DNA of 64,000 nucleotides, taken from contig SVRP01000004.1 of the NCBI GenBank assembly GCA_015064735.1, positions 138,800 to 202,799 of the forward strand, written 5' to 3'. Within the stretch, counting starts at the first letter, position 1. Each line of letters begins with the position of its first letter. Made by a program: the position numbers and the translations under genes. This document shows positions 8,559-37,305 of the stretch, piece by piece. The notes beneath the pieces were generated by a model that saw only the letters and a list, made by a program, of their open reading frames with translations, made no database searches and was not told the DNA's origin. This DNA is from Oscillospiraceae bacterium (GTDB taxonomy: Bacteria > Bacillota > Clostridia > Oscillospirales > CAG-272).

Positions 8559-8599
8559 AAGTTCCTCCTTGTTTTGTAATTTAAACAATCGTGCAGCTT

Positions 8600-14085: not shown

Positions 14086-14352
14086 ATGAATAGGGAAGCT
14101 GTATTAAGTTCTCTTGGCATAGGGGAGGTTTTGAAAATTTCCCATGTGGACGGGGAAGAGGCGATAAGGCAACGGCTTTACGATATAGGTATGGTAAACG
14201 GTACTGTTGTAAAATGCATAGCGGTCAGTCCTCTTGGAGATCCGAGGGCCTATGAGATAAGAGGCGCTGTAATAGCCTTGCGAAAAAAAGATGCCGCAAA
14301 TATATACGGAATAACAGTTGAAACGGAAAACTCATCGGAGGTAATTCCATGA
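14086..14352 (+). CDS. feoA: Ferrous iron transport protein A
   Basis: An 88-aa SH3-like FeoA protein. Features: GEVLKISHVDGEEAIRQRLY, then DIGMVNGTVVKCIAVSPLGD and YEIRGAVIALRKKDA, the typical FeoA order (length usually 75-85 aa). It is the small cytoplasmic partner of FeoB. The ATG follows AGAGAGGA; the upstream extension of the frame crosses the leader hairpin and was not used. It overlaps feoB by four bases (ATGA). It is intact, although its partner FeoB is interrupted. Confidence 0.92.
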   Translation: MNREAVLSSLGIGEVLKISHVDGEEAIRQRLYDIGMVNGTVVKCIAVSPLGDPRAYEIRGAVIALRKKDAANIYGITVETENSSEVIP

Positions 14353-15344
14353 GTGTAAGATGTGATAATAACCTTGTCCGTACCGTTGCTCTTGCCGGAA
14401 ATCCAAATGTAGGAAAAAGCACCTTGTTTAATCTTCTTACAGGAATGCATCAGCATACCGGAAATTGGACGGGAAAAACCGTCGGTACTGCAACAGGAGA
14501 ATGCAAAAGAAAAGACAAAGTTATACGGCTTATTGATCTTCCGGGAACGTATTCTTTGAATTCACATTCAGAAGAGGAAGAAATTGCAAAAATCTATATA
14601 GAAAGCGGAGAGGCAGACGAGGTCGCAGTAGTGTGTGATGCTACCTGTCTTGAAAGAAATTTAATACTTGTTCTTCAAATTTTGGCGATTACATCAAGCG
14701 TTATTGTTTGTGTTAATCTACTGGATGAGGCAAGGAAGAAGGGAATAAAGGTTGATACTAAGGCACTGTCCAAAATTTTAGGCGTCCCCGTATTCGGTAT
14801 AAGCGCAAGGAAAAAAGATGGAACGGATGCTCTCGTTGAGTATTTTTTAAATGAAAAAGAAGAGTACAATCCGATAATTGTTGAAGAAGATGTTGTTAAG
14901 CAAGCAGAGCAGATATCAAAGCAGTGCGTTATATATAAGAAAAGTGATTACACATTTCGGGATAGACATATAGACAGAATACTCACCAGCAAAGTGTTTG
15001 GATTTCCAATCATGTTTATATTGTTGGCGATTATATTTTGGATAACTATTGAGGGAGCAAATTACCCTTCAAAATTGCTTTCAAATCTATTGTTTGCATT
15101 TGAATCAGAGCTTATGGGATTTTTCAATCTTATAAATGCTCCTGTATGGCTTAGCGGAATGTTAGTTCACGGTGTTTACCGAACTGTTGCGTGGGTAGTA
15201 TCTGTAATGCTTCCACCAATGGCAATTTTCTTTCCATTGTTTACATTGCTTGAGGATTTTGGATATCTTCCGAGAGTAGCGTTTAACCTGGATAAATGTT
15301 TCGGAAAATGCGGTGCGTGCGGAAAGCAAGCTCTAACCATGTGA
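14349..15344 (+). pseudogene. feoB: feoB, N-terminal part (gene split by the 11-kb element)
   Basis: The first 331 codons of a FeoB ferrous iron transporter. The G domain is complete: G1 GNPNVGKST near residue 19, G3 DLPGTYS, G4 NLLD and G5 region GISARKKDG, followed by a helical GDI-like region and the first membrane helices (FGFPIMFILLAIIFWITIEG, then VSVMLPPMAIFFPLFTLLED). It ends GKCGACGKQALTM and a TGA created by the junction with the element, exactly where FeoB proteins normally continue CMGFGCNAAGV. The missing codons resume at 26491 on the same strand. In this state the gene can yield only a G-domain protein with a truncated channel. It is listed as pseudogene for lack of a better term; it may be reversible. 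Confidence 0.9.
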
Positions 15345-15358
15345 AAAGGGAAAGGGAG
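15326..15358 (+). other. attL: left junction of the feoB element
   Basis: The feoB-side arm AAGCTCTAAC, core CATGTG and element-side arm AAAAGGGAAAGGGAG. The element-side bases TGAAAAGGGAAAG are the imperfect inverse complement of the bases at the right end. The stop codon of the feoB fragment (TGA, 15342-15344) is formed by core plus element. Confidence 0.8.
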
Positions 15359-15363
15359 AATAT

Positions 15364-16113
15364 ATGAGAAAAACGGTGTATGAGATTAAGAACGAAAAAA
15401 TAAAAAAGGGAACAGTCTTTGCTCTTGTGTCTGATCTTCACGGAGCAGATCCTGCCCTTATAATAAAAATGCTTCAAAAGGAGACCCCCGATTACATACT
15501 TTTGCCGGGAGATATACTTGAAGAGCTTAATGGTGTGTGCGATGAAAAATATAATAACGGCATGAAGCTTCTTACTGAATCTGCGAAGATTGCCCCCACC
15601 TTTTATTCCATGGGAAATCACGAGGACGGTGCTACACGTTCGTGGAGTATGAAATGGAAAAAAACAGTAAAGAGCCGTGAATACAATGAAAAATGTGTTG
15701 AAGACATAAATCGAAGCGGAGCTCATTTTCTAGCGGACGGTTATACGGTTTACGATGGTATTGCTTTTGGAGGATTGCTTACGGGTCTTATTTTTGAGGG
15801 CAGGAAACCTAGGACAGGATGGCTCGAGGGATTTTACAAATTACCGGAGCCAAAAATACTTTTGTGTCATCATCCCGAATATTATGAGGAGTATTTGAAA
15901 GACAAGGATATAGATCTTATTGTAAGCGGTCATGCTCACGGCGGTCAATGGAGAATTTTCGGAAGGGGTCTGTTTGCACCGGGACAAGGATTATTTCCTA
16001 AATACACAAAGGGACTTTACGATAACAAATTCGTTATCAGTACAGGATTAAAAAAGGGAAGCATTCCGCGATTTTTTAATCCCACAGAAATAGTCTTTAT
16101 AAAAACAGTATAG
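15364..16113 (+). CDS. Metallophosphoesterase (YkuE/YaeI-like)
   Basis: A 249-aa calcineurin-like phosphoesterase with all metal-binding blocks: VSDLHGADP, LLPGDILEE, SMGNHED, CHHPEYYEEYL and VSGHAHGGQWRIFGRGLFAP. The GHAHGGQ-type ending resembles the YkuE/LpxG-like membrane-associated group, but no signal peptide or helix is present, so it is probably cytoplasmic. It starts 20 bp inside the element with GGGAG before the ATG and has no visible promoter of its own, so feoAB transcription through attL probably drives it. A strong terminator follows. The substrate is unknown. Confidence 0.8.
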   Translation: MRKTVYEIKNEKIKKGTVFALVSDLHGADPALIIKMLQKETPDYILLPGDILEELNGVCDEKYNNGMKLLTESAKIAPTFYSMGNHEDGATRSWSMKWKKTVKSREYNEKCVEDINRSGAHFLADGYTVYDGIAFGGLLTGLIFEGRKPRTGWLEGFYKLPEPKILLCHHPEYYEEYLKDKDIDLIVSGHAHGGQWRIFGRGLFAPGQGLFPKYTKGLYDNKFVISTGLKKGSIPRFFNPTEIVFIKTV

Positions 16114-16151
16114 AAAACAGCGTTCTCGACATCTGTTGAGAACGCTGTTTT
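16114..16151. terminator. Bidirectional terminator between phosphoesterase and alpha-galactosidase
   Basis: A perfect 14-bp stem AAAACAGCGTTCTC / GAGAACGCTGTTTT around a 10-base loop, placed between two convergent genes. It should end the feoA-feoB'-phosphoesterase transcript. Confidence 0.85.
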
Positions 16152-16152
16152 C

Positions 16153-18102
16153 TCATATTTTCTTATAGGTAAATATCTTGGCTACGCGAGCTTCTGTAAT
16201 TGTAACGGTAAATCCTTTTTCGCAAAGCTCCTTGCCAGAGAGACAGAAATCTCCGCCGTCAAGGTCTGTGAATAAATAATTTTTTGACTTGTCTATATTG
16301 CGAAGCTTAAAGGCAGCCGTAAGGTACGAGCTGTTTTCTCTTTTAAATATCTGTATCATACCTTCATCATCAAGCGTCCACTGAGTAGCACACCATGCAG
16401 ACAGATCTCTCTTTGGCTCTGTAAGATGATAAATATCTCCAAGGAAATATTTTCTTATGGAGAGGTATTCCTCACAATGCTTTTTAAACCACGACACGTG
16501 CTCGTCTGTGTCGCCGAAATTCTCGGTGGAGCTGTAGAGGTAATTGCTTGTCATAGCAGGTCCGTATGCACTTCTTATGGTATATGTATCATAAATTCTA
16601 CCCGGACTTGTTGCGCTGAAAGGAGTCCAAAGAGAGAAGTTCATGTTATGAGCTTGTGTAACCTCAGGATCGGGATTTGCAGGACATTGAGCATCGCTTC
16701 TCCAAAGAGGAACACTTCGCTTGAGTGTCTCTATATCTATTCTGTTTCCGCCGCTTGCGCAGTTATCAATCATAAGCTTGGGGAATCGTTCAAGAAGAGT
16801 ATCCCACAGGCGGTATAGACCCATAATATGCTTTATTTCGGTAATGCCTTTACGGTTTTCCGTGTCTTTGCTCCTCCAATAAGGAAGAGGTCTGAAGTTA
16901 AAGTCCTGTCGATACCAATCAATTTTTAGAGTATCTATTTTTTCTGTCAGCAGAGCAAGACAGTAATTGAAGGCTTCTTCATTTCCGAGATCAAGCAGAA
17001 AATTTCTGGTTCCTTCTTGAGAAATGAGATATTCTGGGTGCTCCTTTACAAGATCGGTACGCAAGCGTACACGTTCGGGTTCAAACCAAAGAATGAAGTT
17101 TCTTCCGCTTTCTTTAATTTTGTTTGATACGTCTACAAGTCCGTTCTTGTGAACAAATGGACTTATGGTAAGGTCTCCTACATGATCTGCCCAGTCTCCT
17201 TCATATTCGTTGGAAGTAGGCAAGGTATCCTTTCCTGCCCAACCTGCGTCTATCCAAACATTTTCCACGGGAATTTCGTACTTGTCGAGCAAGGATATTC
17301 TGTCAATGATCTTATCGCTTTCAAGACCTCCCCAAAAGCCCGCGCAGAGAGGAAGGTGATCAATGCGATCTGTAAGTGGGGAAAACTCATTCTTTATGAG
17401 GTCTCTCCACAAATTCTGCGACTCCTCAACAGTAGCCTCATAAGGAAGAATAACTACAGATGATGTGCGAATCTTTTCACCCGGGAAGAGTACAAATTCG
17501 GTATCCTCGATCTTGCTTTTGAAGCGTACGGCATTTTCTTCACGAGATATCTGTGCATTCCATTGACCGGTCCAGCCTACAGCCACGATATATCCCTTTC
17601 CTCTCTCATGTATATTGAAGAATGGTGCTGTACCTTCGCTTGAACGACCGCCTATTGGAGCGTATTTGAAGCTTTTTGAATTGTTGAGCAAAAAATTTTT
17701 ATTATGTCCTCCGCCGTTTAAATGGGAATAAAAATCCGTCTCGTCTCGTCCCTCTGAACCATAGGGATTAAGAACGTAGGTGTTCTGTTCAATGCTTGGA
17801 AACCAAGGGGAAGGGCCTGTTGGGGGACAATACGAAAAGGGAAGCTCCACATCACAGTCCCAAAGCTCTGTTATAAGCTCGGTATTTTCTGTTCCGATAT
17901 TTTCAAGATAGTTTACCCATTCGTATGCGCCGCTTCTTTTATGTTTTTTGGCTATATTTGTGAATTTTAATCCACTATCAAAGTAATAGGTAGTAATAAG
18001 CTCATATTCGTTTTCGCTGACGTCAACCCTTTTTGAACATTTGTGAGCAGGGATGCCGCCGTACATGAATGAAAATATATTACGGTTTTTCAGAAAGTCC
18101 AT
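16153..18102 (-). CDS. Alpha-galactosidase (GH36-like)
   Basis: A 649-aa enzyme of the GH36/GH27 clan D. Seen: an N-terminal beta-sandwich; NVWIDAGWAGKD at about 280; ILWFEPERVR; LKIDWYRQDFNF, whose aspartate is the expected nucleophile; DNCASGGNRIDIETLKRSVP; and WRSDAQCPANP with the expected acid/base aspartate. There is no signal peptide, so it would hydrolyse imported alpha-galactosides such as raffinose-type sugars. The ATG chosen has TGGAGG six bases upstream. It is divergent from an AraC gene. It is about 70 residues shorter than typical 720-aa GH36 enzymes; a small C-terminal beta-domain remains. Confidence 0.85.
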   Translation of the reverse strand: MDFLKNRNIFSFMYGGIPAHKCSKRVDVSENEYELITTYYFDSGLKFTNIAKKHKRSGAYEWVNYLENIGTENTELITELWDCDVELPFSYCPPTGPSPWFPSIEQNTYVLNPYGSEGRDETDFYSHLNGGGHNKNFLLNNSKSFKYAPIGGRSSEGTAPFFNIHERGKGYIVAVGWTGQWNAQISREENAVRFKSKIEDTEFVLFPGEKIRTSSVVILPYEATVEESQNLWRDLIKNEFSPLTDRIDHLPLCAGFWGGLESDKIIDRISLLDKYEIPVENVWIDAGWAGKDTLPTSNEYEGDWADHVGDLTISPFVHKNGLVDVSNKIKESGRNFILWFEPERVRLRTDLVKEHPEYLISQEGTRNFLLDLGNEEAFNYCLALLTEKIDTLKIDWYRQDFNFRPLPYWRSKDTENRKGITEIKHIMGLYRLWDTLLERFPKLMIDNCASGGNRIDIETLKRSVPLWRSDAQCPANPDPEVTQAHNMNFSLWTPFSATSPGRIYDTYTIRSAYGPAMTSNYLYSSTENFGDTDEHVSWFKKHCEEYLSIRKYFLGDIYHLTEPKRDLSAWCATQWTLDDEGMIQIFKRENSSYLTAAFKLRNIDKSKNYLFTDLDGGDFCLSGKELCEKGFTVTITEARVAKIFTYKKI

Positions 18103-18162
18103 ATTTGCCTCCAATTATATTAAATACATGAATAGTATATCACACAAAAACACAATTTTCTA

Positions 18163-18192
18163 TTGACTTTTCACCAAAAAACATGTTATAAT
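18163..18192 (+). promoter_or_regulatory. Promoter of the element's AraC regulator
   Basis: TTGACT (18163-18168), 18-base spacer, TATAAT (18187-18192), 22 bases before the start codon. A weaker divergent TGTGATATACT extended -10 on the minus strand (about 18131-18145) may serve the alpha-galactosidase. Confidence 0.75.
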
Positions 18193-18214
18193 CATCATGA
18201 ATAGAGGTGAGAAT

Positions 18215-19042
18215 ATGACGGAAAGAAAAAAAGATATTTTTTATTCTCAGATAGCCCCCTTTGAAATGAGAGCGGCATACGTGGAGAATTCCGATTTGGA
18301 TAAAGGCAGAGATACGGGCTCCCACGTTCACCCCGAATGTGAGATATATATAAATCTAACGGGAGACGTATCCTTTATGGTGGAAAATCGTATATACCCG
18401 ATCTTCACGGGAAGTGTGGTAATAAGCCGTCCATACGAATATCACCATTGTATATATCATAGCAATGAGCCTCACAAGCATTTCTGGATCCTTTTTAAGC
18501 CAAACGGCAACGACCGTTTGTTTGAAAAATTTTTTGACCGTCCTTTGGGAGAGAAGAATCTATTGACAGTTTCTTCCGAAAGACAGAAGGAACTATTTGA
18601 TCTTTGCTTTAAACTAAGTGGCGAAACGCTTTCGGAGCTTGAACGGTATTATTTGTTTTTTAAGCTTATTTATATTCTTAACGATGCTGATAGCCCTGAG
18701 ATTCTTGAGGATATATACACCAAGGATATGGCGTTTGCATTAAGCTTTATAGACAAGTGCTTTTGCGATTCAATAACTATTTCGGATATTGCTCAAAGCG
18801 CACACGTAAGCATAAATACGTTGGAGCGACATTTTTGGGAAACATTGCATATGACCCCATCATCGTATTTGAAAAAAAAGCGTCTTGCCAATGCAGCAGA
18901 AATGCTTTACAACGGACACACGGTAACCGAAGCATGTCAGGAAAGCGGATTTGCCGATTATTCAAGCTTTATAGCAACCTTTAAAAAGAATTACGGAATG
19001 ACACCTCTGAAATATAAAAAGCATATTGAAAATCATAAATAA
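18215..19042 (+). CDS. AraC-family transcriptional regulator
   Basis: A 275-aa AraC regulator with an N-terminal cupin (DTGSHVHPECEIYINLTGDV, SRPYEYHHCIYHSNEPHKHFW) and a C-terminal DNA-binding domain (ITISDIAQSAHVSINTLERHF and HTVTEACQESGFADYSSFIA). The start is the second ATG, preceded by AGAGGTGAG; the ATG six codons earlier is upstream of that site. Divergence from the alpha-galactosidase gene points to sugar-dependent control of that gene. It lies inside the feoB element and has no evident link to recombination, so it is not a good candidate for an excision factor. Confidence 0.87.
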   Translation: MTERKKDIFYSQIAPFEMRAAYVENSDLDKGRDTGSHVHPECEIYINLTGDVSFMVENRIYPIFTGSVVISRPYEYHHCIYHSNEPHKHFWILFKPNGNDRLFEKFFDRPLGEKNLLTVSSERQKELFDLCFKLSGETLSELERYYLFFKLIYILNDADSPEILEDIYTKDMAFALSFIDKCFCDSITISDIAQSAHVSINTLERHFWETLHMTPSSYLKKKRLANAAEMLYNGHTVTEACQESGFADYSSFIATFKKNYGMTPLKYKKHIENHK

Positions 19043-19080
19043 AAAATATCCATCGACATTTTTGCCGATGGATATTTTTT
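19041..19080. terminator. Bidirectional terminator
   Basis: AAAAAATATCCATCG pairs with CGATGGATATTTTTT around ACATTTTTGC. It lies between the convergent AraC and isocitrate dehydrogenase genes and ends both transcripts. Confidence 0.9.
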
Positions 19081-19082
19081 GT

Positions 19083-20297
19083 TTAAGCCAATTTAGCCTC
19101 AAGTCTTTCACGTATAGCCTTGATGAAGCCAATAGAGTTAACAGCAGTAGCTGTGTAACCTTCGCTTACAAGACCGACGAGGTCCTTTGTCATGATGCCG
19201 TCGTTAAGGGTATCGATACAAGCCTCCTCAAGCTTGTTGGCAAAATCAACGAGATCTGAGAGTCCGTCAAGCTCGCCTCTCTTACGGAGCGCACCGGACC
19301 ATGCGTAGATTGTCGCCATGGGGTTTGTAGAAGTATCCTCTCCCTTGAGATAACGGTAGTAGTGGCGTGTAACTGTGCCGTGCGCCGCTTCATATTCGTA
19401 CTTTCCGTCGGGAGATACGAGAACAGAGGTCATCATTGCAAGAGAACCGAATGCGGTGGAAACCATATCAGACATAACGTCTCCGTCATAGTTCTTGCAA
19501 GCCCAGATATAACCGCCCTCGCTTCTTATTACGCGCGCAACTGCATCGTCAATAAGAGTGTAGAAGTATGTAATACCTGCTTCATCGAACTTTTCCTTAT
19601 ATTCGTTATCGAATATTTCCTGGAAGGTCAGCTTGAAGGTCTGGTCGTACTTCTTTGAAATGGTATCCTTGGTAGCAAACCAAAGATCCTGTTTGGTATC
19701 AAGAGCATACTGGAAACAGGAGTGCGCGAATGAGCGAATGGAACTGTCCTTGTTATACTGACCCTGAAGAACTCCTCCGCATTCAAAGTCATAAATGGTC
19801 TCTCTGAATTTGGTTCCGTCCTTAGCAGTAAAGAGAAGCTCTGCCTTTCCTTCAGCGGGAACACGGTACTCGGTAGCCTTGTAAACGTCGCCGTATGCGT
19901 GACGTGCAATCGTTATGGGCTTCTTCCAATTGCGTACTGCGGGCTTGATCGAGTCGATGAGTATGGGTGCTCTGAAAACTGTACCGTCAAGAATTGCGCG
20001 GATAGTTCCGTTGGGGCTCTTCCACATCTCGGAGAGATTGTACTCCTCAACTCTTTGCTTGTTAGGTGTAATTGTTGCGCACTTAACAGCAACTCCGTAC
20101 TTAAGAGTAGCGTTTGCGCTGTCGATGGTAACCTGGTCTTTAGTCTTTTCGCGTTCTACAAGACCGAGATCATAATATTCTGTTTTAAGATCAACAAAGG
20201 GAGTAAGAAGCTCGTCCTTTATCATCTGCCACAGAATTCTTGTCATTTCGTCGCCATCCATTTCAACGAGGGGCGTTTTCATTTGAATTTTTTTCAT
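19083..20297 (-). CDS. icd: NADP-dependent isocitrate dehydrogenase (eukaryotic-type)
   Basis: A 404-aa isocitrate dehydrogenase of the short NADP-dependent type found in eukaryotes and many Clostridia. Markers: [13 protein letters not shown] at the N-terminus, [36 protein letters not shown] (isocitrate binding), [28 protein letters not shown] (metal-binding aspartates) and [15 protein letters not shown]. It turns isocitrate into 2-oxoglutarate, feeding glutamate synthesis. The start has GGAGGT nine bases upstream; an ATG two codons earlier is too close to that site. It is the last gene of the four-gene operon headed by aconitase, which makes its substrate. It is complete. Confidence 0.93.
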
Positions 20298-20347
20298 GTT
20301 CATTACCTCCGAACTGTTTGAAAAAATTTATTTAAATTCTTATGAAT

Positions 20348-22366
20348 TTACATTGTAACTACTTCTATAATGCTGTGAATATCAATGCGGTCTATCCGAA
20401 CGTACGCTCTTCCGTTTTTGTAAATGAAGGGAAGAGAACGGTTCTCAGGCTGAAGCATAAGCTTTATGGGCTTTTGCGGCAACTCTATTGAGATACAAGT
20501 GTCTAATACGGGCGGGATATAGTCGTCGGTAGCAGAATAAGGGTTATCATGGCTACCTCCGGCATTTACGAGCTGGATCATAAGCTTTTCGTCCTTTAAA
20601 AGCGGAACGATTTCAAGTCTTCCCAAAACAGATTCTACCTTCACAAGAGGAGTATAGAGTCTTTCTGTAATCTTCTTCATGAGTGTACGGTGCAAGTACT
20701 GAGTGCCATTCAGATATTGAGAGCCTATATCAAATCCGATAGCAGTGATCCTTCCGTTTCCGTACGGTATCTCAACAGCAAGAGATGCTTTAGGAGAGCG
20801 GATATTGGTATGAACGTATGCCACCGATTCTCCATTATCCGAGGATAATTCGCAAGGTGAGAACAAGGCGCCGAACTCATTTCCGTCTAACGTGAAAAAG
20901 TATGACTTATACTCGGCAGGAGCGTTCTTGCCATGACCGTTGTCGCCGCCGTTATCATATGCCTTTTCGCCCTCTCCAAAGAATTCGGGCATATTGGTAA
21001 CGTTAAGCGGGATACCTGCGTTTGCAAAGAAATAACAGGTGTTTTTGCCTGAAATAACAAGATTTCCGCCATTTTTTGCATACTCAAGAAGCATATCAAC
21101 GGTATCATCGGCAAGACCGCAGTAAAGCTCGGGAACGACTATCATTTTATACGGCTCGCACCCCTTTTCCAAGGTATGCTCACAGACTATTTCCAAGGAC
21201 TGTCCGATATCGCAAAGCAGAGCGGTCATTCCCATGATCTTTTCATATCCTGTTCGAGAATAGAGACGTTTCGATTCGCGCTTTCTGTCATAAGTTGAAA
21301 GAAGAAGAGCAGCCTCGTGTACTGGTGTTCCACGGAAGCAGTAGGGCTCGCGCTCTCTCATAAATTCTGAAAGCTTTGTGAGAGATCTGACTTCTTTGAG
21401 GTTAGGCGAACCGTCCTTGAACTGCATGATATAGTTCTGGTATGCCCCGCCAAGAGAAATTACCGCTGCTGCCTCCTGAAGTATCTGATTTACATGCTTT
21501 GCCGCACATGCCGAGCGGTCTCCTACACGTATACGGAAATTCCAAGACATAAGGTCCCACGGGTGATTTTGCTGAGCCAATGCGCGCGCCGCATATCTTG
21601 CTGAATGCAAAGAATTATTAGGATTAAGGTCTCCCGAAAGAAAATCTACGTTTGCACATATCTTTTCAGGCATGTGGTCGCTAAATGACCAATTTGATGC
21701 TATTTGAACATCGGGATATTTTGCATGCAGAGTATCTACATAATGCCTTACGTAACGGCGGAAAAGCTCGCGATGATATTCACGGTATTCGTCGTAATAA
21801 GGGTCATCAGGATTTGCAGGCAGTCTGCCACCGAGATCAATACCTGTTTCCTTTTCAAAAGCGGTAAGGGATTCCGGGCGAAAATCAGGCTTTGCGCACC
21901 AGCAATCTCCGTCAATCCAAAAGCCGTCAACTCCGTACTTTTCTATGATTTCCGAAAGCTGAGGAATAAGTATCTCATCAACGTATTTGCCGTCTGTACG
22001 GGTCGTTCCCGAGTATAGGGAGCCGTCCGCCATCATAGCCGTTTCTTCGGGATGCTCGGAGCAATATTTAATGTCGTATACCCCCGAATAGTGCAGGTAA
22101 AGCGCAACGTTTTCTTCTTTTGTAACTTTTCTCCAAAGCGCGAGAGGATCACCTTCAAATTCGGGCATAGCATTTCCAAGCGTTGATGGATAGGATGCCC
22201 ATCCGGGATGTCCCTTACAGTCTATCTGGATAAAATCAGGCTTTATAAGACGGCATATTTCGCGTATGTCCTCTTCCTTTAAGGTGGCTCCGATTACAAA
22301 ACCGTCCGACGGTTGAGCATGAAAGTCAAAGTGAAGCCCGAAAAAGCTGTCTTTACGTTTTTTCAT
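20348..22366 (-). CDS. Putative glycoside hydrolase with TIM barrel and trimerisation-like domain
   Basis: A 672-aa cytoplasmic protein that looks like a clan-A or fucosidase-like glycosidase. A TIM barrel is suggested by FFGLHFDFHAQPSDG, PDFIQIDCKGHPGWASYP, YGVDGFWIDGDCWCAKPDF and VQIASNWSFSDHMPE. A flavodoxin-like beta-galactosidase trimerisation-type domain follows (MIVVPELYCGLADDTVDMLL, NGGNLVISGKN), then a beta-sandwich end. The aspartates of FWIDGDCW are the best candidates for catalysis. Resemblance to GH151/GH29-like alpha-fucosidases or GH42-like enzymes is noted, but I cannot fix the family. It is 17 bp after the sugar isomerase gene in the operon with aconitase and isocitrate dehydrogenase. 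Its ribosome binding site is weak. Confidence 0.6.
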   Translation of the reverse strand: MKKRKDSFFGLHFDFHAQPSDGFVIGATLKEEDIREICRLIKPDFIQIDCKGHPGWASYPSTLGNAMPEFEGDPLALWRKVTKEENVALYLHYSGVYDIKYCSEHPEETAMMADGSLYSGTTRTDGKYVDEILIPQLSEIIEKYGVDGFWIDGDCWCAKPDFRPESLTAFEKETGIDLGGRLPANPDDPYYDEYREYHRELFRRYVRHYVDTLHAKYPDVQIASNWSFSDHMPEKICANVDFLSGDLNPNNSLHSARYAARALAQQNHPWDLMSWNFRIRVGDRSACAAKHVNQILQEAAAVISLGGAYQNYIMQFKDGSPNLKEVRSLTKLSEFMREREPYCFRGTPVHEAALLLSTYDRKRESKRLYSRTGYEKIMGMTALLCDIGQSLEIVCEHTLEKGCEPYKMIVVPELYCGLADDTVDMLLEYAKNGGNLVISGKNTCYFFANAGIPLNVTNMPEFFGEGEKAYDNGGDNGHGKNAPAEYKSYFFTLDGNEFGALFSPCELSSDNGESVAYVHTNIRSPKASLAVEIPYGNGRITAIGFDIGSQYLNGTQYLHRTLMKKITERLYTPLVKVESVLGRLEIVPLLKDEKLMIQLVNAGGSHDNPYSATDDYIPPVLDTCISIELPQKPIKLMLQPENRSLPFIYKNGRAYVRIDRIDIHSIIEVVTM

Positions 22367-22383
22367 GATGATTTACCCAACAT

Positions 22384-23211
22384 TTACATTGAAATAGCTT
22401 TTTTGATCTTTTCAATTGCAATCGCGTGGAACTGCTCCGTGGAAAGTTCGCCGTAATTAAGAGCCTCGCCGTTTTTGCCTATTTTATTTCCTTTGGAAAG
22501 TTCGCTCATAAGATAGCCGTTATAGCCTGTCTTTTCTATTCGTTCCATGATGTTGTGCCAATCCGCAATACCGTCAGTAGGAAGAAGATGAAGGTCATCA
22601 TAGAACGTTATTTCGTCTCCGCGGACACCGAGATTGTCGTTAAAGTGAGTATGACAAAGCTTTTCGCCGTAAAGAGCTAGCATATCTCTATGCTCATTGT
22701 AGCACATTTCGTGTCCGGTATCGAGGCAGAAGCCGACAGAGGGCTCGTTCCAGAAGGTTTTCATTATAGCCGCGATATATTCTTCACCCTCAACGTTCTC
22801 AAAACCAAGCTTGACGTTGAGTTTGTTAGCTACCTCGATAACACGCGCATAGTTATCAAGTCCTACCTGAGTGGGAGTGTGATCCTTAAAGCCGATAAAG
22901 GGATGTATTACCATAACGGGAATATCAAATTTTGCGCAGTCCTCAACACAACGGATAAGCTCGTTAGTTACAAAATCACCCTGCTCGCCGCCGTCCCAAA
23001 GGTATTTTACCTTGTGAGTACCGCTAAAGGGGGAATGAATAGACTGTTGGAAAAGTCCAAGCTGAGCCGCTTTGTTGGAAATCTGTTCCTGACGCTCTAT
23101 CGAATACCATCCTGCGTGAAAGCCTTCGAATCCTACGTTCTTGATTATTTCGAGTTCGTCCAAAATGTCAACTCCGCCAACGGGAGAAGTACCGAGTTTA
23201 AAGTTTTCCAT
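22384..23211 (-). CDS. Sugar phosphate isomerase/epimerase family protein (xylose isomerase-like TIM barrel)
   Basis: A 275-aa AP-endonuclease-2/xylose-isomerase-like TIM barrel. Seen: FEGFHAGWYSIERQ, SIHSPFSGTHKV, VMVIHPFIGFKDH, LGFENVEGEEYIAA (metal-binding glutamate), VGFCLDTGHEMCYN, LCHTHFNDNLG and a closing glutamate in GYLMSELSKGN. Members epimerise or isomerise keto-sugars, inositol or related compounds. The ATG chosen follows AAGGAG. It is sandwiched between the aconitase gene (40 bp upstream) and the glycosidase gene (17 bp downstream), so it probably works on the sugar that the glycosidase frees. The substrate is not determinable. Confidence 0.8.
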   Translation of the reverse strand: MENFKLGTSPVGGVDILDELEIIKNVGFEGFHAGWYSIERQEQISNKAAQLGLFQQSIHSPFSGTHKVKYLWDGGEQGDFVTNELIRCVEDCAKFDIPVMVIHPFIGFKDHTPTQVGLDNYARVIEVANKLNVKLGFENVEGEEYIAAIMKTFWNEPSVGFCLDTGHEMCYNEHRDMLALYGEKLCHTHFNDNLGVRGDEITFYDDLHLLPTDGIADWHNIMERIEKTGYNGYLMSELSKGNKIGKNGEALNYGELSTEQFHAIAIEKIKKAISM

Positions 23212-23251
23212 AATCAAAATCTCCTTGAATTTTTTATTTTTAATTAATTGC

Positions 23252-25495
23252 TTAATTGCTGTGCTTTTTGTAGTAGTTCATAAGGCATCCGCAGAGAATT
23301 ATTTCCTTTTCATCCTCGGTAAGGCCCTTGACGTAAAGTGTAATATCCTCAACGCTTCCGTTTGCCTTGATGACCTTTGCGGCGAATTCTTCCTTGCCGT
23401 CAATGAGAGCCTGACGGATACCGCCTACGAACACGTAATCGCCCTCAGTATAGGGGAACTCAGCATCCTCTGCAAGAGTAAAGGGAAGAATACCCCAGTT
23501 GATACAGTTCGAACGATAGCGCTTTGTAGCAAACTCATAGCATATATTTGCGAAACCGCCAAGAACCTTCTGACAGGAAGCGGCCTGCTCACGCGCAGAA
23601 CCGTCTCCCGGCTTGTTTGCAAATACGCAAGAGCCAAACTGGGTATTGTTTATAAGCTCGTCTGCATTTCCTACTGCAGAAAGAACCCCGATAAGCTCTT
23701 CAGGCTTCTTATCCGATCTTCTGTCAGCCTCGGTTGCCGCAATAGCCTTGGAGCGTCCAACATATTCGGGAACACGACGGGAAAGGGCAAACTCTGAAAG
23801 ACGAAGGGGATTCGAACGGTAGGACGAGGTCTCACCTGAGGGAATAAGCTCGTCAGTGGTTGTTACGGGATCACGGATAACGGCAGCCAACTTAACAAGA
23901 AGATTATCGGCAAGCTCGTACTGTGTGGGCCAGTCGGTTATGTTGGGGCCGAGAATAAGCTCAACAGAGGGATCTGCTTTGCCGAACCCGTAGTAAACTC
24001 TTTTACCGTATACCGTCTTATCGAAATGATACTCATGAGGAGTATAATCATAATCAACGTCGGTAGCCGCAGTAATAACACCGCCGTTTCGAGCTGTTGC
24101 CGCAATACTTCTCGCATCCATGAGCGCAACACCCGAAAGCTGACCCTCGCCGGGCTTAGAGCCTTCGCGGTTGGGGAAGTTTCTCGTGGTGTGACGGAGA
24201 GAGAGACCGTTGTTTGCGGGAACGTCTCCAGCCCCAAAGCAAGGACCGCAGAACGAGGGTTTAATTACAGCGCCCGCCTGCAAAAGCTCTGCCGTAACGC
24301 CTATTTTCGTAAGCTCAAGTGATACGGGAACACTGGTGGGATATACAGAAAGTGAGAAATATCCGTTTCCTGTGCTTTGATTCTTAAGAATTGCCGATGC
24401 TTCGTCAATGCTGTCGAACATACCACCGGAGCAGCCGGCTATTATACCTTGGTCAGCGTATACCTTCCCGTCCTTTACCTTGGAACGGAGACCGAGATTA
24501 CATTTGCCGAACTTTTTCTTTGCTTCTTCCTCGACCTTGGCGAGAATTTCATCCGCATTTTCTACAAACTCATGAATGGTGTATGCGTTGGAAGGGTGGA
24601 AGGGAAGCGCAATCATAGATTCCATCTTAGAAAGGTCTATTTCAATCATGGAGTCATAGTATGCAACATTACCGGGTGCAAGTTTCTTGTACTCCTCGGG
24701 TCTGCCGTGTGCTACGTAATGTTCCTTGGTAATGTCGTCTGTTTCCCAAATAGAGGAAAGGCAGGTCGTTTCGGTAGTCATAACGTCGATTCCGTTACGG
24801 AAATCAATGGGGAGATTCTTTACACCCGGGCCGACAAATTCAAGAACCTTGTTCTTTACAAATCCGTTAGCAAAGGTAGCTCCTACGAGAGCGATAGCTA
24901 CGTCGTGAGGTCCGATACCTTTTTTGGGAGCGCCCGTAAGATAAACGAGAACCACCTCCGGAGCCTTTATATCGTAGGTATTCTTTAGAAGCTGCTTAAC
25001 AAGCTCGGGACCGCCTTCGCCTACACCCATAGTTCCAAGAGAACCGTATCGGGTATGAGAGTCGGAGCCGAGAATCATTTTACCGCAGCCGGTAAGCTCC
25101 TCGCGGGCATAGGAGTGAATTACACTCTGGTTTGCGGGAACGTAGATTCCGCCGTATTTTTTTGCGGCGGAGAGACCAAAAACGTGGTCATCCTCGTTTA
25201 TTGTTCCGCCAACAGCGCAAAGAGAGTTGTGGCAGTTTGTCATTGCGTAGGGGATTGGAAATTCCTTCAGACCGCTTGCTCTTGCTGTCTGAATAATTCC
25301 AACGTATGTAATATCGTGGGAAACGAGAGCATCAAAGCGGATCTTCATTTCCGCTTCACCGATTTTTGCAGTATTATGCGCATTCAAAATAGAATAAGCA
25401 ATAGTGTTTTGTCTTGCCTCTGCCGGGGATAGGGAAGCCTTATCGGTTACCTTACCGTCTACGAGGAAGACACCGTGATCCGTAAGCTTGATCAT
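23252..25495 (-). CDS. acn: Aconitate hydratase family protein
   Basis: A 747-aa aconitase-superfamily hydratase. The three cluster cysteines lie in IAGCSGGMFDS and SFCGPCFGAGD, the arrangement for a [4Fe-4S] cluster; substrate region MILGSDSHTRYGSLGTMGVG and the swivel domain (LPFTLAEDAEFPYTEGD, SNCINWGILPF) are present. It should interconvert citrate and isocitrate, although related hydratases can act on other acids. It heads a minus-strand operon that ends with isocitrate dehydrogenase. It has a perfect promoter with an overlapping palindrome. An iron-sulfur enzyme located in the element that interrupts an iron transporter is notable. It is complete and of normal length for this clostridial group. 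Confidence 0.88.
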   Translation of the reverse strand: MIKLTDHGVFLVDGKVTDKASLSPAEARQNTIAYSILNAHNTAKIGEAEMKIRFDALVSHDITYVGIIQTARASGLKEFPIPYAMTNCHNSLCAVGGTINEDDHVFGLSAAKKYGGIYVPANQSVIHSYAREELTGCGKMILGSDSHTRYGSLGTMGVGEGGPELVKQLLKNTYDIKAPEVVLVYLTGAPKKGIGPHDVAIALVGATFANGFVKNKVLEFVGPGVKNLPIDFRNGIDVMTTETTCLSSIWETDDITKEHYVAHGRPEEYKKLAPGNVAYYDSMIEIDLSKMESMIALPFHPSNAYTIHEFVENADEILAKVEEEAKKKFGKCNLGLRSKVKDGKVYADQGIIAGCSGGMFDSIDEASAILKNQSTGNGYFSLSVYPTSVPVSLELTKIGVTAELLQAGAVIKPSFCGPCFGAGDVPANNGLSLRHTTRNFPNREGSKPGEGQLSGVALMDARSIAATARNGGVITAATDVDYDYTPHEYHFDKTVYGKRVYYGFGKADPSVELILGPNITDWPTQYELADNLLVKLAAVIRDPVTTTDELIPSGETSSYRSNPLRLSEFALSRRVPEYVGRSKAIAATEADRRSDKKPEELIGVLSAVGNADELINNTQFGSCVFANKPGDGSAREQAASCQKVLGGFANICYEFATKRYRSNCINWGILPFTLAEDAEFPYTEGDYVFVGGIRQALIDGKEEFAAKVIKANGSVEDITLYVKGLTEDEKEIILCGCLMNYYKKHSN

Positions 25496-25535
25496 AATTG
25501 TTCTCCTTGGTCAAATATAATTATTATACAACATC

Positions 25536-25554
25536 ATATTATACAATATAATAT
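25536..25554. promoter_or_regulatory. Perfect palindrome over the aconitase -10 box (candidate operator)
   Basis: ATATTATA CAA TATAATAT is an exact inverted repeat of 8 bp arms. It covers the -10 hexamer and part of the spacer of the minus-strand promoter, a position suited to a repressor. AT-richness makes a chance palindrome possible. Confidence 0.4.
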
Positions 25555-25566
25555 AGGAAAAGTCAA
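25538..25566 (-). promoter_or_regulatory. Promoter of the aconitase-isocitrate dehydrogenase operon
   Basis: On the minus strand TTGACT, a 17-base spacer and a perfect TATAAT, about 43 bases before the aconitase start codon. It reads away from the recombinase gene. Confidence 0.85.
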
Positions 25567-25595
25567 TACAAAGTTAAATATTTGAAGGAGTATTT

Positions 25596-26477
25596 ATGAT
25601 ATACAAAGCCGGATTATACATGAGACTTTCAAAGGATGACGGTCAACGGGAAAGTAGCGGTATAGAGAGTCAGAGATTTTTGCTTCGTGATTTTGCTAAA
25701 AGGGAAAATATAGAAATAATTGACGAATATGTTGATGACGGATATAGCGGTACGCGGTATGACCGTCCTGCCTTTGAAAGAATGCTTTCAGATATAGAAA
25801 ATAAGAAAATAAATACTGTAATTGTTAAGGATTTATCCAGGCTTGGAAGAAATTACATAGTTACAGGAGAGCTTACCGAAATCTATTTTCCCGAGCATTT
25901 TGTAAGACTTATTTCAATTAATGACGGATATGATTCAAATCTTGGAAACGACGATATGGCTCCGTTCCGCCATGTTGTCAATGAGATGTATGCAAGAGAT
26001 ATATCAAGAAAAATAAGATCCGCTCTATATGCGAAAATGAAGGAAGGACAGTACATTGGAAGCTTTGCTCCGTACGGATACAAGAAAAGTAAGAAAAACA
26101 AAAACGTTCTTGTTATTGATACGGTAGCGGCAGAGGTTGTAAAAAAAATATTTCAAATGAAAGCGGACGGATACACTACAAAAGAAATTGCAAAAAAGTT
26201 AAATGATGAGAAAACGCTAGTTCCGCTTGATTACAGAAATGCTTTGTTGGGGAAGGAAATATCACGACTGAGTTGGACTCAAAGCGGTGTGTGTAAAATC
26301 TTACGGAATCAGATATATTTAGGGCATACACTTCAGGGAAAAAGTATTAAACCCAGTATAAAATCAAACAAAGTTTGTTCAAGGGAGCGTACTCGGTGGA
26401 TTATCGTAGAGAACACTCATGAAGCAATAGTATCTCAAGAGCTTTTTGATTTAGTAAATCATATGAAAAACAAATAA
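25596..26477 (+). CDS. Serine site-specific recombinase, short form without zinc ribbon
   Basis: A 293-aa serine recombinase related to TnpX/TndX-type large integrases. The catalytic domain starts YKAGLYMRLSKDDGQRES with nucleophile Ser12, followed by GIESQRFLLRDFA, DDGYSGTRYDRPAFERML and VKDLSRLGRNYIVTG. The recombinase DNA-binding domain follows (EGQYIGSFAPYGYKK, GYTTKEIAKKLNDE, WTQSGVCKILRNQIYLGHT). It stops at HEAIVSQELFDLVNHMKNK, where related proteins continue into a zinc ribbon and coiled coil of about 200 residues. The stop codon is 12 bp from the right junction core. GAAGGAG precedes the ATG. It is the obvious enzyme for excising or inserting the feoB element, unless the short C-terminus inactivates it. 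Confidence 0.88.
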   Translation: MIYKAGLYMRLSKDDGQRESSGIESQRFLLRDFAKRENIEIIDEYVDDGYSGTRYDRPAFERMLSDIENKKINTVIVKDLSRLGRNYIVTGELTEIYFPEHFVRLISINDGYDSNLGNDDMAPFRHVVNEMYARDISRKIRSALYAKMKEGQYIGSFAPYGYKKSKKNKNVLVIDTVAAEVVKKIFQMKADGYTTKEIAKKLNDEKTLVPLDYRNALLGKEISRLSWTQSGVCKILRNQIYLGHTLQGKSIKPSIKSNKVCSRERTRWIIVENTHEAIVSQELFDLVNHMKNK

Positions 26478-26508
26478 ATTTGCTCTTTTCATGTGTATGG
26501 GGTTTGGA
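26478..26508 (+). other. attR: right junction of the feoB element
   Basis: Element-side arm TTTGCTCTTTT, core CATGTG and feoB-side arm TATGGGGTTTGGA. With attL it defines a deduced attP (TTTGCTCTTTTCATGTGAAA continuing AGGGAAA), which is close to palindromic around a central TG, and a deduced attB inside the feoB codons. Confidence 0.8.
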
Positions 26509-27336
26509 TGTAATGCCGCCGGGGTAGTTGGATGTAGGATAATAGATTCAAAAAGAGAAAGACTTATTGCTATGCTTACCAATGCTCTGGTTCCGTGTAA
26601 CGGAAGATTTCCTACTCTTATCGCGCTTATTTCTATTTTTATAATCACATCGCAAGGTTTGATCGGCTCGGTGGCAGCGGCTTTGATATTATCAGGGTTC
26701 ATAATACTTTCTGTGCTTGTAACCGTTATGTGCAGTAAGCTTTTATCGGCTACGATTCTTAAAGGGGAGCCTTCGTCATTCGTTCTTGAATTGCCACCCT
26801 ACCGCACTCCACAGTTTGGCAGAGTAATAGTTCGTTCTATGCTCGACAGAACGCTTTTTGTGCTAGGGCGCTCGGTAGCATTTGCCGCTCCTGCGGGACT
26901 TGTCTTGTGGTTGATTGCAAATATAACGGTAGGAGATAATAGTATTCTCGTTCACATGGCAGATTTTTTAGAGCCATTTGGAATAATACTCGGGCTCGAC
27001 GGCGCGATAATTCTTGCTTTTATTTTAGCTTTACCGGCAAATGAAATCTTTTTGCCTATTGTCTTGATGATTTATAATTCAGGGCATGCACTGACCGAAT
27101 ATTCGGGATATGAGGAGCTTTTTTCCGTACTCAGCGCAAACGGTTGGACTATTGTTACTGCCATTTGTGTGATTTTGTTTACAATATTTCATTTTCCGTG
27201 CGCTACGACTGTTATGACTATAAAAAAAGAATCCGGAAAGCTTCGGTATGCGGTTACTGCGGTGGTATTACCTACACTTGTTGGAATATTTTTGTGTTTT
27301 ATTTTTAATTTGTTTTTCAAAATCCTATTGAATTGA
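26491..27336 (+). pseudogene. feoB: feoB, C-terminal part (gene split by the 11-kb element)
   Basis: The last 280 codons of FeoB, beginning CMGFGCNAAGVVGCRIIDS and RERLIAMLTNALVPCNGRFP, the conserved gate region of FeoB. Membrane helices follow (FPTLIALISIFIITSQGLIG, LILSGFIILSVLVTVMCSKL, FAAPAGLVLWLIANITVG, ILGLDGAIILAFILALPANE, a second gate, and VVLPTLVGIFLCFIFNLFFK). The ATG at 26491 is the core Met and lacks any ribosome binding site, so this half is probably silent while the element is inserted. It joins in frame to the fragment ending at 15344. No internal stop or frameshift is present, which argues for recent or reversible interruption. Confidence 0.9.
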
Positions 27337-27430: not shown

Positions 27431-28498
27431 ATGAAGGAAACAGTAAAAAAATATTTGCACAGATACTTTATTGAAGCAATGGGCGCAATGGCATTGGGGC
27501 TTTTTGCGTCCTTGCTCATAGGAACTATCTTTAATGCCATTGGTATGATACCTCACATGGAATTTATGGGTAAGATAGGCGCATACGCTCAGGCAATGGC
27601 AGGAGCGGTAATGGCGGCGGCTATGGCGTATTCCCTAAAGGCACATCCCTTGGTGATTTTCACGGCAGCGGCAGTAGGACATGCTGCAAATACGCTCGGT
27701 AAGGCGGGAGGCCCTCTTGCGGTTTTCTTTATCACAATAGTAGCTGTTGAAATAGGAATGCTTGTGTCAAAAAAAACGAAGATTGATATAATAGTTACAC
27801 CCTTTGTAACACTTTTTACAGGTGGCGCACTCGCACTTCTGGTTGCGCCTCATATAGGAACATTAGTAGGATTTATAAGTAAGTTTATAGGTTGGGCGGC
27901 ACTTCAGGCTCCCCTTGTTGCAGGTATAATAATATCCGTGGTTATTGGAATCGCATTGACTCTTCCTATTTCGTCGGCGGCTATATGCGCGGGGCTCACG
28001 CTTACGGGAAGTGCACTGGTTGATAATTCGGAGGGACTTGCCATAGCGGGAGCGGCGGCTGTTGCAGGCTGTTGCGCACAGATGGTTGGATTTGCCGTTA
28101 TAAGCTTTCGAGAAAATAAGTGGAGCGGTCTGCTATCCCAGGGAATAGGCACTAGTATGCTTCAGATGCCTAATATAATAAAGCATCCTCAGATATGGAT
28201 AGCTCCCACACTTGCTTCCGCAATAACGGGTCCCTTGGCTGTTTGCGTATTTGACCTTCGTATGTACGGTGCGGCAATTAATTCGGGAATGGGTACTTGC
28301 GGTCTTTTAGGCCCCATTGGACTTATCCTCGGTTGGTTTGATCCTACATACGGATATACGGGAAGTGTTGGCGTAATACATTGGATAGGACTTGCTCTTA
28401 TTTGCTTTATTCTTCCTGCTGTCCTTTCATTTTTATTTAATGAAATTCTTCGTATGATCGGTTTTGTTAAAGACGGATATATGAAGCTTGACACTTGA
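27431..28498 (+). CDS. PTS_EIIC_2-family membrane permease
   Basis: A 355-aa integral membrane protein with about ten hydrophobic segments, matching the PTS_EIIC_2 (PF13303) type: KKYLHRYFIEAMGAMALGLF at the start, AQAMAGAVMAAAMAYSLKAH, AVGHAANTLGKAGGPLAVFF, LPISSAAICAGLTLTGSALV and MYGAAINSGMGTCGLLGPIG. These are annotated as phosphotransferase EIIC proteins but often stand alone, without EIIA or EIIB genes, as here. The transported substrate is unknown. It follows the feoB 3' end by about 94 bp with its own promoter, and a hairpin follows it. Confidence 0.8.
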   Translation: MKETVKKYLHRYFIEAMGAMALGLFASLLIGTIFNAIGMIPHMEFMGKIGAYAQAMAGAVMAAAMAYSLKAHPLVIFTAAAVGHAANTLGKAGGPLAVFFITIVAVEIGMLVSKKTKIDIIVTPFVTLFTGGALALLVAPHIGTLVGFISKFIGWAALQAPLVAGIIISVVIGIALTLPISSAAICAGLTLTGSALVDNSEGLAIAGAAAVAGCCAQMVGFAVISFRENKWSGLLSQGIGTSMLQMPNIIKHPQIWIAPTLASAITGPLAVCVFDLRMYGAAINSGMGTCGLLGPIGLILGWFDPTYGYTGSVGVIHWIGLALICFILPAVLSFLFNEILRMIGFVKDGYMKLDT

Positions 28499-37116: not shown

Positions 37117-37235
37117 TTGCCACACAAGTGAATAATGTCAGTATAGGGAAAGTATGCTTATTTTTACCTTGGTAAAAACGCATACTCTTGTTTCGCATAC
37201 TTTCTTACTGATATATCGAAACACTTGTGTGGCAA
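37117..37235 (+). ncRNA. 119-nt nested hairpin in the leader (structured RNA or MITE-like)
   Basis: Outer arms TTGCCACACAAGTG (37117-37130) and CACTTGTGTGGCAA (37222-37235) pair perfectly over 14 bp. Inside, TCAGTA pairs with TACTGA, and AAAGTATGC (37149-37157) pairs with GCATACTTT (37195-37203). A second GCATACT copy at 37180-37186 competes for the same partner, closing an inner TTTTTACC/GGTAAAAA hairpin. The layout suits a regulatory RNA that can switch folds, but a miniature inverted-repeat element is an alternative. Confidence 0.6.
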
Positions 37236-37242
37236 CAATCGG

Positions 37243-37294
37243 AGTTGTGCGTTTTTCGTGCGTATGACTTCGGTTGTACGCACTTTTATTTTTT
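37243..37294 (+). terminator. UUCG-capped leader terminator with overlapping antiterminator
   Basis: GTGCGTATGAC and GTTGTACGCAC (37258-37283) form an 11-bp stem (two G-U wobbles) capped by C(UUCG)G, followed by TTTTATTTTTT. AGTTGTGCG (37243-37251) can instead pair over nine positions with CGTATGACT (37261-37269), which would open the terminator. It is placed just before the GGAGGA ribosome binding site. Confidence 0.6.
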
Positions 37295-37305
37295 GGAGGA
37301 AAGAC

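Follow-up and report, generated by a model that had tools for sequence, protein, structure and literature searches.

A feoB gene split in frame by a segment encoding a shortened serine recombinase in an Oscillospiraceae genome, and its possible restoration by excision

Background

Can a bacterial gene that has been cut in two by inserted DNA remain in use? The question is raised by a stretch of 64,000 nucleotides (nt) from an Oscillospiraceae bacterium (assembly GCA_015064735.1, contig SVRP01000004.1, positions 138,800 to 202,799), hereafter the window, in whose coordinates all positions on this DNA are given. In it feoB, the gene of a ferrous iron transporter, is present as two halves separated by a segment that encodes a serine recombinase (REC), a metallophosphoesterase, an NADP-isocitrate dehydrogenase (ICDH) and an aconitase-family hydratase, among other proteins. 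The source genome (G000) is assembled into 31 contigs and is 95% complete. We consider it a tentative possibility, with a probability of roughly 45%, that the segment is an ancient and since tamed insertion made by a large serine recombinase (LSR), and that excision still restores feoB at a frequency sufficient for selection to maintain the gene. This reading is supported by the exact junctions and the dyad in which they lie, by the same split in a second genome (G020), by the grouping of REC with other recombinases seated in feoB, by the age of the split, and by selection on the G000 halves.

Results and discussion

The two halves of feoB join exactly

The N-terminal half of feoB (14349..15344, + strand) encodes 331 amino acids (aa), ending in CGKQALTM before a TGA, and the C-terminal half (26491..27336, + strand) encodes 281 aa starting with MCMGFGCNAAG. 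The break lies at 15341/26491, with both halves on the same strand and an ATG-to-ATG spacing of 11,152 bp, and translation of the open reading frames (ORFs) shows no internal stop in either half. Pfam assigns FeoB_N and part of Gate to the N-terminal half, and Gate and FeoB_C to the C-terminal half; the break falls within the first Gate domain of FeoB, at a highly conserved motif. The ORFs and Pfam thus agree with the ends and the freedom from extra stops that the initial annotation, made from the sequence alone, had given for the two halves. Its further claim, that the two breaks share CATGTG and join exactly, also holds: CATGTG is present at both junctions, its single use yields 331 + 280 = 611 aa in frame, and the joined sequence (GKQALTM followed by CMGFGCNAAGVVGCRIIDS) aligns across the join with intact FeoB of the same genus.

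Serine recombinases cross over at a central dinucleotide. From the predicted attL (CTAACCATGTGAAAAGGGAAA, 15333..15353, + strand) and the predicted attR at the right junction (ATTTGCTCTTTTCATGTGTATGG, 26478..26500, + strand), a virtual attP can be reconstructed as CTCTTTTCA-TG-TGAAAAGGG, a TG-centred dyad in which 10 of 13 arm positions match. The window has 4,128 TG-centred positions, and two of them give equally good dyads, a count for which centre and arm length were picked after the sequence had been seen. As far as the sequence can tell, the junction dyad is not a chance feature, and the junctions would fit the way LSRs recombine, at a short core flanked by the two arms of a dyad attP.

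A second genome of the genus carries the same split

We compared the locus across 30 genomes of the genus, many of whose assemblies are incomplete. The N-terminal half of feoB has matches in eight of the 30 at E 1e-60, and the C-terminal half in 13 at E 1e-12, nine of these at 54% identity or more and the remainder being distant paralogues. The gene is split in two genomes (G000 and G020) and full-length in seven (G001, G007, G012, G017, G019, G022 and G025); the other 21 of 30 are without this orthologue. Six of the seven were found by sequence to be uninterrupted across the junction, a check set beforehand, and G019 was judged by frame length only.

In G020 (Clostridia bacterium RGIG5324, from sheep colon) the break in feoB falls at the same codon, and all 21 nt of the left junction are identical to those of G000, despite synonymous sites that are near saturation. 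Its contigs carry feoA, the N-terminal half and the phosphoesterase; ICDH, the hydratase and REC; and the C-terminal half, DUF554 and an EIIC gene. The C-terminal half and REC of G020 are interrupted by contig ends, and the right junction lies outside the visible sequence. A search of the GTDB collection with the left-junction pattern gave one match, on the G020 contig (the window's own genome was possibly left out of that search).

REC is a shortened relative of LSRs that insert at the same codon

REC (25596..26477, + strand; 293 aa) has the catalytic Resolvase domain (PF00239, 1.5e-25) and the Recombinase domain (PF07508, 1.9e-22) only, and its gene points away from that of the hydratase, an arrangement shared by G020. 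The serine recombinase that the initial annotation placed at one end of the element is present, in shortened form: it stops at residue 293, before the region that forms the zinc ribbon in five scanned feoB-seated LSRs. In PDB sequences the catalytic domain is matched by TnpX and residues 8-285 by the SPbeta integrase YokA; against the NCBIfam model of XisF it scores 71 bits, far under the cut-off of 375. The REC branch has a length of 0.51 in a tree of 59 recombinases, within the range of its group from the same node (0.40-0.80). For REC of G020 only the start is visible; its first 64 aa are 61% identical to those of G000, and over the first 65 codons the ratio of nonsynonymous to synonymous differences per site (pN/pS) is 0.34. 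G000 also encodes another LSR, of 535 aa. A motif, TTATACAA, was considered as a promoter element common to the hydratase gene and REC and was rejected; it also precedes the hydratase genes of G013, G015 and G017, which have no REC behind them, and is therefore probably the hydratase promoter.

The feoB codon broken in the window is broken in seven other places (genomes G151, G206, G586, G562, G623 and G203, and IMG/VR contig L236), six of them with LSRs, which are of two types. Three of the 32 matched genomes in a draw of 395 from the family are broken there (G000, G151 and G206), as are four of the 55 matched in a draw of 394 from the order (G000, G586, G562 and G623); frame length served to judge every listed match, and sequence those that were fetched, and two matches at contig ends (G563 and G505) could not be judged. 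The LSR of G203 came from a search with the recombinase, in which it is the best non-self match in the 395 family genomes (54% identity to REC); it abuts an N-terminal half of feoB ending at the same codon (locus L203). On L236 (1319-4791) an LSR stands against the C-terminal half; another LSR, unlike the first, lies ~40 codons deeper in feoB and perhaps marks a second target site. In G206 (L103) the feoB sequence ends with the contig at the break, and no recombinase is seen on that contig.

In the recombinase tree, built from 59 of 60 candidates (L034 was left out as too short), REC and the LSRs of G203, L236, G151 and G586 (locus L099) form one group (93% support), the latter four being grouped together at 100%. 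This tree supersedes an earlier one of 30 sequences, from which the G623 recombinase was missing and in which REC was weakly placed with feoB-seated LSRs and L014. The second type, of 466-467 aa, is found in G562 and G623. All six feoB-seated recombinases are full-length, unlike REC: the zinc ribbon is present in all five that were scanned (G151 was unscanned), and DUF4368 in three of REC's own group.

Gene labels for these insertions come from reading of the sequences. In G151 (L065/L066) a ~22-kb block of metabolic type lies in feoB with its LSR in the middle, and includes an oligopeptide-type ABC transporter, Gfo/Idh-type dehydrogenases and a glucosamine-6-phosphate deaminase-like gene; we read it as a metabolic island resembling the segment of the window. 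In G562 (L100/L102/L160) ~40 kb with phage-tail-like genes separates the halves. Phage or mobile-type genes are seen in some of the feoB-seated insertions, and in G623 (L159, 2592-12555) ~7.7 kb separates halves that point in opposite directions, as would result from an inversion after insertion. In G372 feoB looks broken by frame length, but this is due to a single in-frame stop past the junction with no insertion, and it was not counted. In the viral collection the N-terminal half of feoB has no relative; the sole match there to the feoB-junction pattern, L237, is phage-like DNA in which no feoB reading frame is seen, and is therefore regarded as a chance match.

The split is probably older than the species that carry it

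In eight genomes (G002, G005, G009, G013, G015, G023, G026 and G027) the ICDH and hydratase genes stand as a pair at this locus, adjoining DUF554, the EIIC gene or a phosphoesterase-AbrB pair, and in G013 feoA is still found ahead of the phosphoesterase gene. A tree of ICDH and hydratase places G000 with G013 (100%) and G020 with G015 (71%), beside G017 and G022; in a tree of ICDH alone, G015 falls with G017 and G022 instead of G020. With both proteins, a grouping of G000 with G020 was rejected (P = 8e-61), as was one of all intact genomes plus G018 (P = 4e-5, both by approximately unbiased (AU) test). A tree of AbrB was poorly supported and was left unused. As G000 and G020 are not grouped, and as their nearest relatives for these two proteins, G013 and G015, have the pair here without feoB, the split is probably older than both divergences.

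Among intact-feoB genomes the placement of the pair could be judged for the four whose contigs show it (and not for G007, G012 and G019). In these it lies elsewhere, next to a RadA-like gene (G001 and G025) or an EF-G gene (G017 and G022), names that come from sequence reading; in G018, which is without feoB, the neighbour is again RadA-like. The most economical account has feoB interrupted once, lost several times and restored at least once, in G017/G022, where the intact gene may instead have come from another strain by replacement. Since relatives show split, intact or no feoB, the findings suggest that the insertion is very old and that the cell is possibly still able to undo it.

Two observations concern these relatives in their own right. 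G013 has AbrB, DtxR, feoA and phosphoesterase genes on two contigs (C60 and C75; L164 and L166) with the same protein starts, by duplication or assembly redundancy. In G015 (L167, 1363-3627) one frame of 754 aa beside the phosphoesterase gene covers both an LSR match and an AbrB/SpoVT-like match, and is possibly a recombinase-regulator fusion or an insertion in an AbrB gene.

Selection is still acting on the G000 halves

Synonymous divergence (dS) between G000 and G013 is 1.16 for ICDH, 1.50 for the hydratase and 2.06 for AbrB. As synonymous sites are near saturation, constraint was gauged by pN/pS, a rough measure in this setting and one that increases with distance. Compared with six intact genes, the G000 halves give pN/pS of 0.29-0.42 (N-terminal) and 0.30-0.36 (C-terminal); comparisons of one intact gene with another give 0.22-0.43 for the N-terminal and 0.11-0.33 for the C-terminal part. 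In the feoB tree the G000 branch is 0.56, and from the same ancestor those of G022 and G017 are 0.49 and 0.52. When both G000 halves were evolved neutrally in simulation, none of 2,000 runs stayed free of stops at 0.2, 0.3 or 0.5 changes per site, with 31 stops on average at 0.5; stop-free runs numbered 1 at 0.1, 28 at 0.05 and 348 at 0.02 changes per site. Thus, selection is still acting on the G000 halves. If about half of dS falls on the G000 branch, and if the split is older than G013, this selection has acted on an already split gene.

The segment holds core-type genes

Seven further genes lie between the junctions. The metallophosphoesterase gene (15364..16113, + strand), which is also the first gene inside the split of G020, has homologues in 22 of the 30 genus genomes. 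It is followed by genes for a melibiase-family enzyme (16153..18114, - strand) and an AraC-family regulator (18197..19042, + strand), both assigned by Pfam; for ICDH (19083..20303, - strand), with one match in G000 and homologues in 24 of the 30 genomes; for a fucosidase-like glycosidase (20348..22366, - strand; Pfam), whose homologue adjoins ICDH in G002; for a xylose-isomerase-like TIM-barrel protein (22384..23217, - strand; Pfam); and for the aconitase-family hydratase (23252..25495, - strand), which scores above the cut-off of NCBIfam NF008503 and below those of the aconitate hydratase models, and has one match in G000. Pfam results for the eight enclosed proteins, REC included, contain no phage, conjugation, replication or transfer families. 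This is not the cargo of an ordinary mobile element: core-type genes are present in the segment (phosphoesterase, ICDH and hydratase). The excisable element of the initial annotation stands in part: the exact junction, the relatives with uninterrupted feoB, the same split in G020 and the selection on the G000 halves favour it, and against it REC is truncated and several of the enclosed genes are widespread genes of the genus. Excision itself, or its control by iron, would be a prediction.

On the left the split gene is preceded by feoA (14086..14352, + strand; its ATG was chosen within a longer listed ORF), which by tblastn also precedes feoB in relatives. On the right it is followed by a membrane protein gene (27431..28498, + strand) labelled PTS EIIC-like from reading, to which an NCBIfam scan assigned no family; a homologue follows feoB in relatives.

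How the split may have arisen and been kept

We propose that in an ancestor within the genus a serine recombinase integrated a circle into feoB, with crossover at the TG of its CATGTG; many LSR elements use this codon. The integrase is now reduced to its catalytic and recombinase domains, and the segment has core-type genes. To judge from trees and gene order, some lineages would then have deleted both feoB halves and kept the segment genes at the locus, and G017 and G022, with feoB intact and the genes elsewhere, would be in the state expected after precise excision. In G000 and G020 the two halves and REC are all retained. REC, by itself or aided by a further LSR of the cell, would most likely still excise the block in some cells, restoring FeoB, and could reinsert it, so that selection on the FeoB-restored cells would keep the halves open. 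Speculatively, the loss of its C-terminal region might let REC act in both directions without a directionality factor. A stronger form of this proposal, which we regard as unlikely, is that the shortened recombinase has been domesticated as a reversible, factor-free switch of feoB, between a state with the block in feoB (transporter off, ICDH and hydratase chromosomal) and one with feoB whole and the block circular. Single-copy metabolic genes would then anchor reintegration, and because they select for it the switch would have been kept for much of the age of the genus.

Several results weigh against restoration by excision, most strongly the domains missing from REC, the lack of a visible directionality factor and the fact that the circle would carry single-copy genes. 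No excised form was seen in the material searched, which contained neither reads nor other contigs of the species. REC has neither zinc ribbon nor DUF4368, and three scanned relatives of its own group have both. Gaps between the listed segment genes are at most 100 nt, leaving no obvious room for a directionality-factor gene, although no model search was aimed at such factors and small overlapping ORFs may exist. The excised circle would take along the sole detected ICDH and aconitase-family genes of G000. G017 and G022 have the phosphoesterase gene at one place and the ICDH-hydratase pair at another, unrelated one, not together in a single reinserted block. In the feoB tree, monophyly of all intact genus genes is weakly rejected (P = 0.031), and the AU test does not reject a shared ancestry of the two split genes separate from the rest (P = 0.10). 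The eight genomes with the ICDH-hydratase pair at this locus were not found to have feoB, which is therefore dispensable there. Finally, the feoB branch of G020 is 0.79, compared with 0.40-0.44 for its sisters, and its C-terminal half gives pN/pS of 0.43-0.49 against intact genes, over the intact range, so that it looks to be under weaker constraint.

Much of this would also be expected if the locus were a fossil, that is, an old LSR element whose integrase has lost its DNA-binding half, with feoB dead or dying in G000 and G020 and its halves open through lag or through a split younger than the trees suggest. We think this somewhat doubtful yet a serious possibility. The truncation of REC, the eight genomes without feoB, the fast-evolving gene of G020 with its raised C-half pN/pS, and a second, intact FeoB of 836 aa in G000 are all in keeping with it; it is opposed by the absence of stop-free neutral runs at 0.2 or more changes per site, by pN/pS in G000 resembling that of intact genes, and by a left junction and gene order common to two non-sister species. 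Selection on open halves would also be expected if both were translated and assembled into a working transporter, with no need of excision. The C-half ATG lies in frame 13 nt beyond the REC stop (12 and 16 nt beyond those of the full-length LSRs of G586 and L236), which makes translational coupling conceivable. However, such a two-piece FeoB would be broken inside its first Gate domain, at a highly conserved motif, inspection showed no Shine-Dalgarno-like sequence ahead of the C-terminal half, and the recombinase would be left without a role; we consider this improbable. That the segment is an ordinary integrated mobile element, with REC complemented by another LSR and the whole travelling between cells, is very unlikely: full-length relatives do sit at the same codon in G151, G203, G586 and L236, and a 535-aa LSR is available elsewhere in G000, but the eight enclosed proteins include no phage, conjugation or replication family, the 24 genus genomes with ICDH have a single match to it apiece, and phosphoesterase, ICDH and hydratase genes stand together in G013 and G002 on stretches with no match to REC. 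An assembly join of unrelated contigs, which the initial annotation had itself allowed for, is conceivable in a genome made up of 31 contigs; it is countered by the same codon and left junction in the separate assembly of G020 and by relatives in which the flanking genes on either side are the same, and we give it hardly any credence.

Comparison with known interrupted genes

In the sporulating Firmicutes, skin in sigK, SPbeta in spsM and gin in gerE are segments encoding a serine recombinase that interrupt a host gene exactly and restore it on excision; gin has no phage genes (PMC5595907). The feoB locus resembles these in its exact split, in halves that join in frame and in a recombinase, here shortened, encoded inside; like gin as described there, it has no phage genes. 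It differs in that feoB is an iron transporter gene and not a gene of sporulation or another terminal cell type, in that core metabolism genes are enclosed, in its 293-aa recombinase, in a split common to two non-sister species, and in that excision here is predicted. No directionality factor was found in the feoB segment, at which no model search for one was aimed. As no sporulation gene is involved, REC is without regions that define full LSRs and excision is predicted, we set the locus apart as a variant and not a member of this class.

The nifD, fdxN and hupL elements of cyanobacteria split a metabolic gene by a segment with its own recombinase. The feoB segment is similar in interrupting a metabolic gene and in having its recombinase inside, with a match of REC to XisF far under the cut-off; unlike there, no terminal cell type that could lose the circle is known here. 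Also comparable are the feoB insertions of G151, G203, G586, L236, G562 and G623, at the same codon as in the window, the first four of which carry the nearest relatives of REC in the tree. Most LSR clusters have been predicted to be specific for few target gene clusters (Durrant et al. 2022, PMC10083194), and feoB does not occur in the main text of that survey. PMC6070778 shows islands that use a dusA attachment site and carry feoB as cargo. The literature covered, which excludes most subscription papers, yielded no description of such an interruption in feoB.

If restoration by excision takes place, gene reconstitution would apply to iron uptake in Clostridia as well as to sporulation and nitrogen fixation, a captured LSR would have been kept by its host, and the question would arise of how a switch works with single-copy metabolic genes on the circle. 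Even with excision dead, one feoB codon is a recurrent target of two LSR types, and annotation would list such a site as two broken genes.

Elsewhere in the window are two very long proteins of surface type, labelled from reading: one of 1,859 aa with a phosphoesterase-like part (3009-8588), and one of 951 aa with leucine-rich-type repeats (37225-40080).

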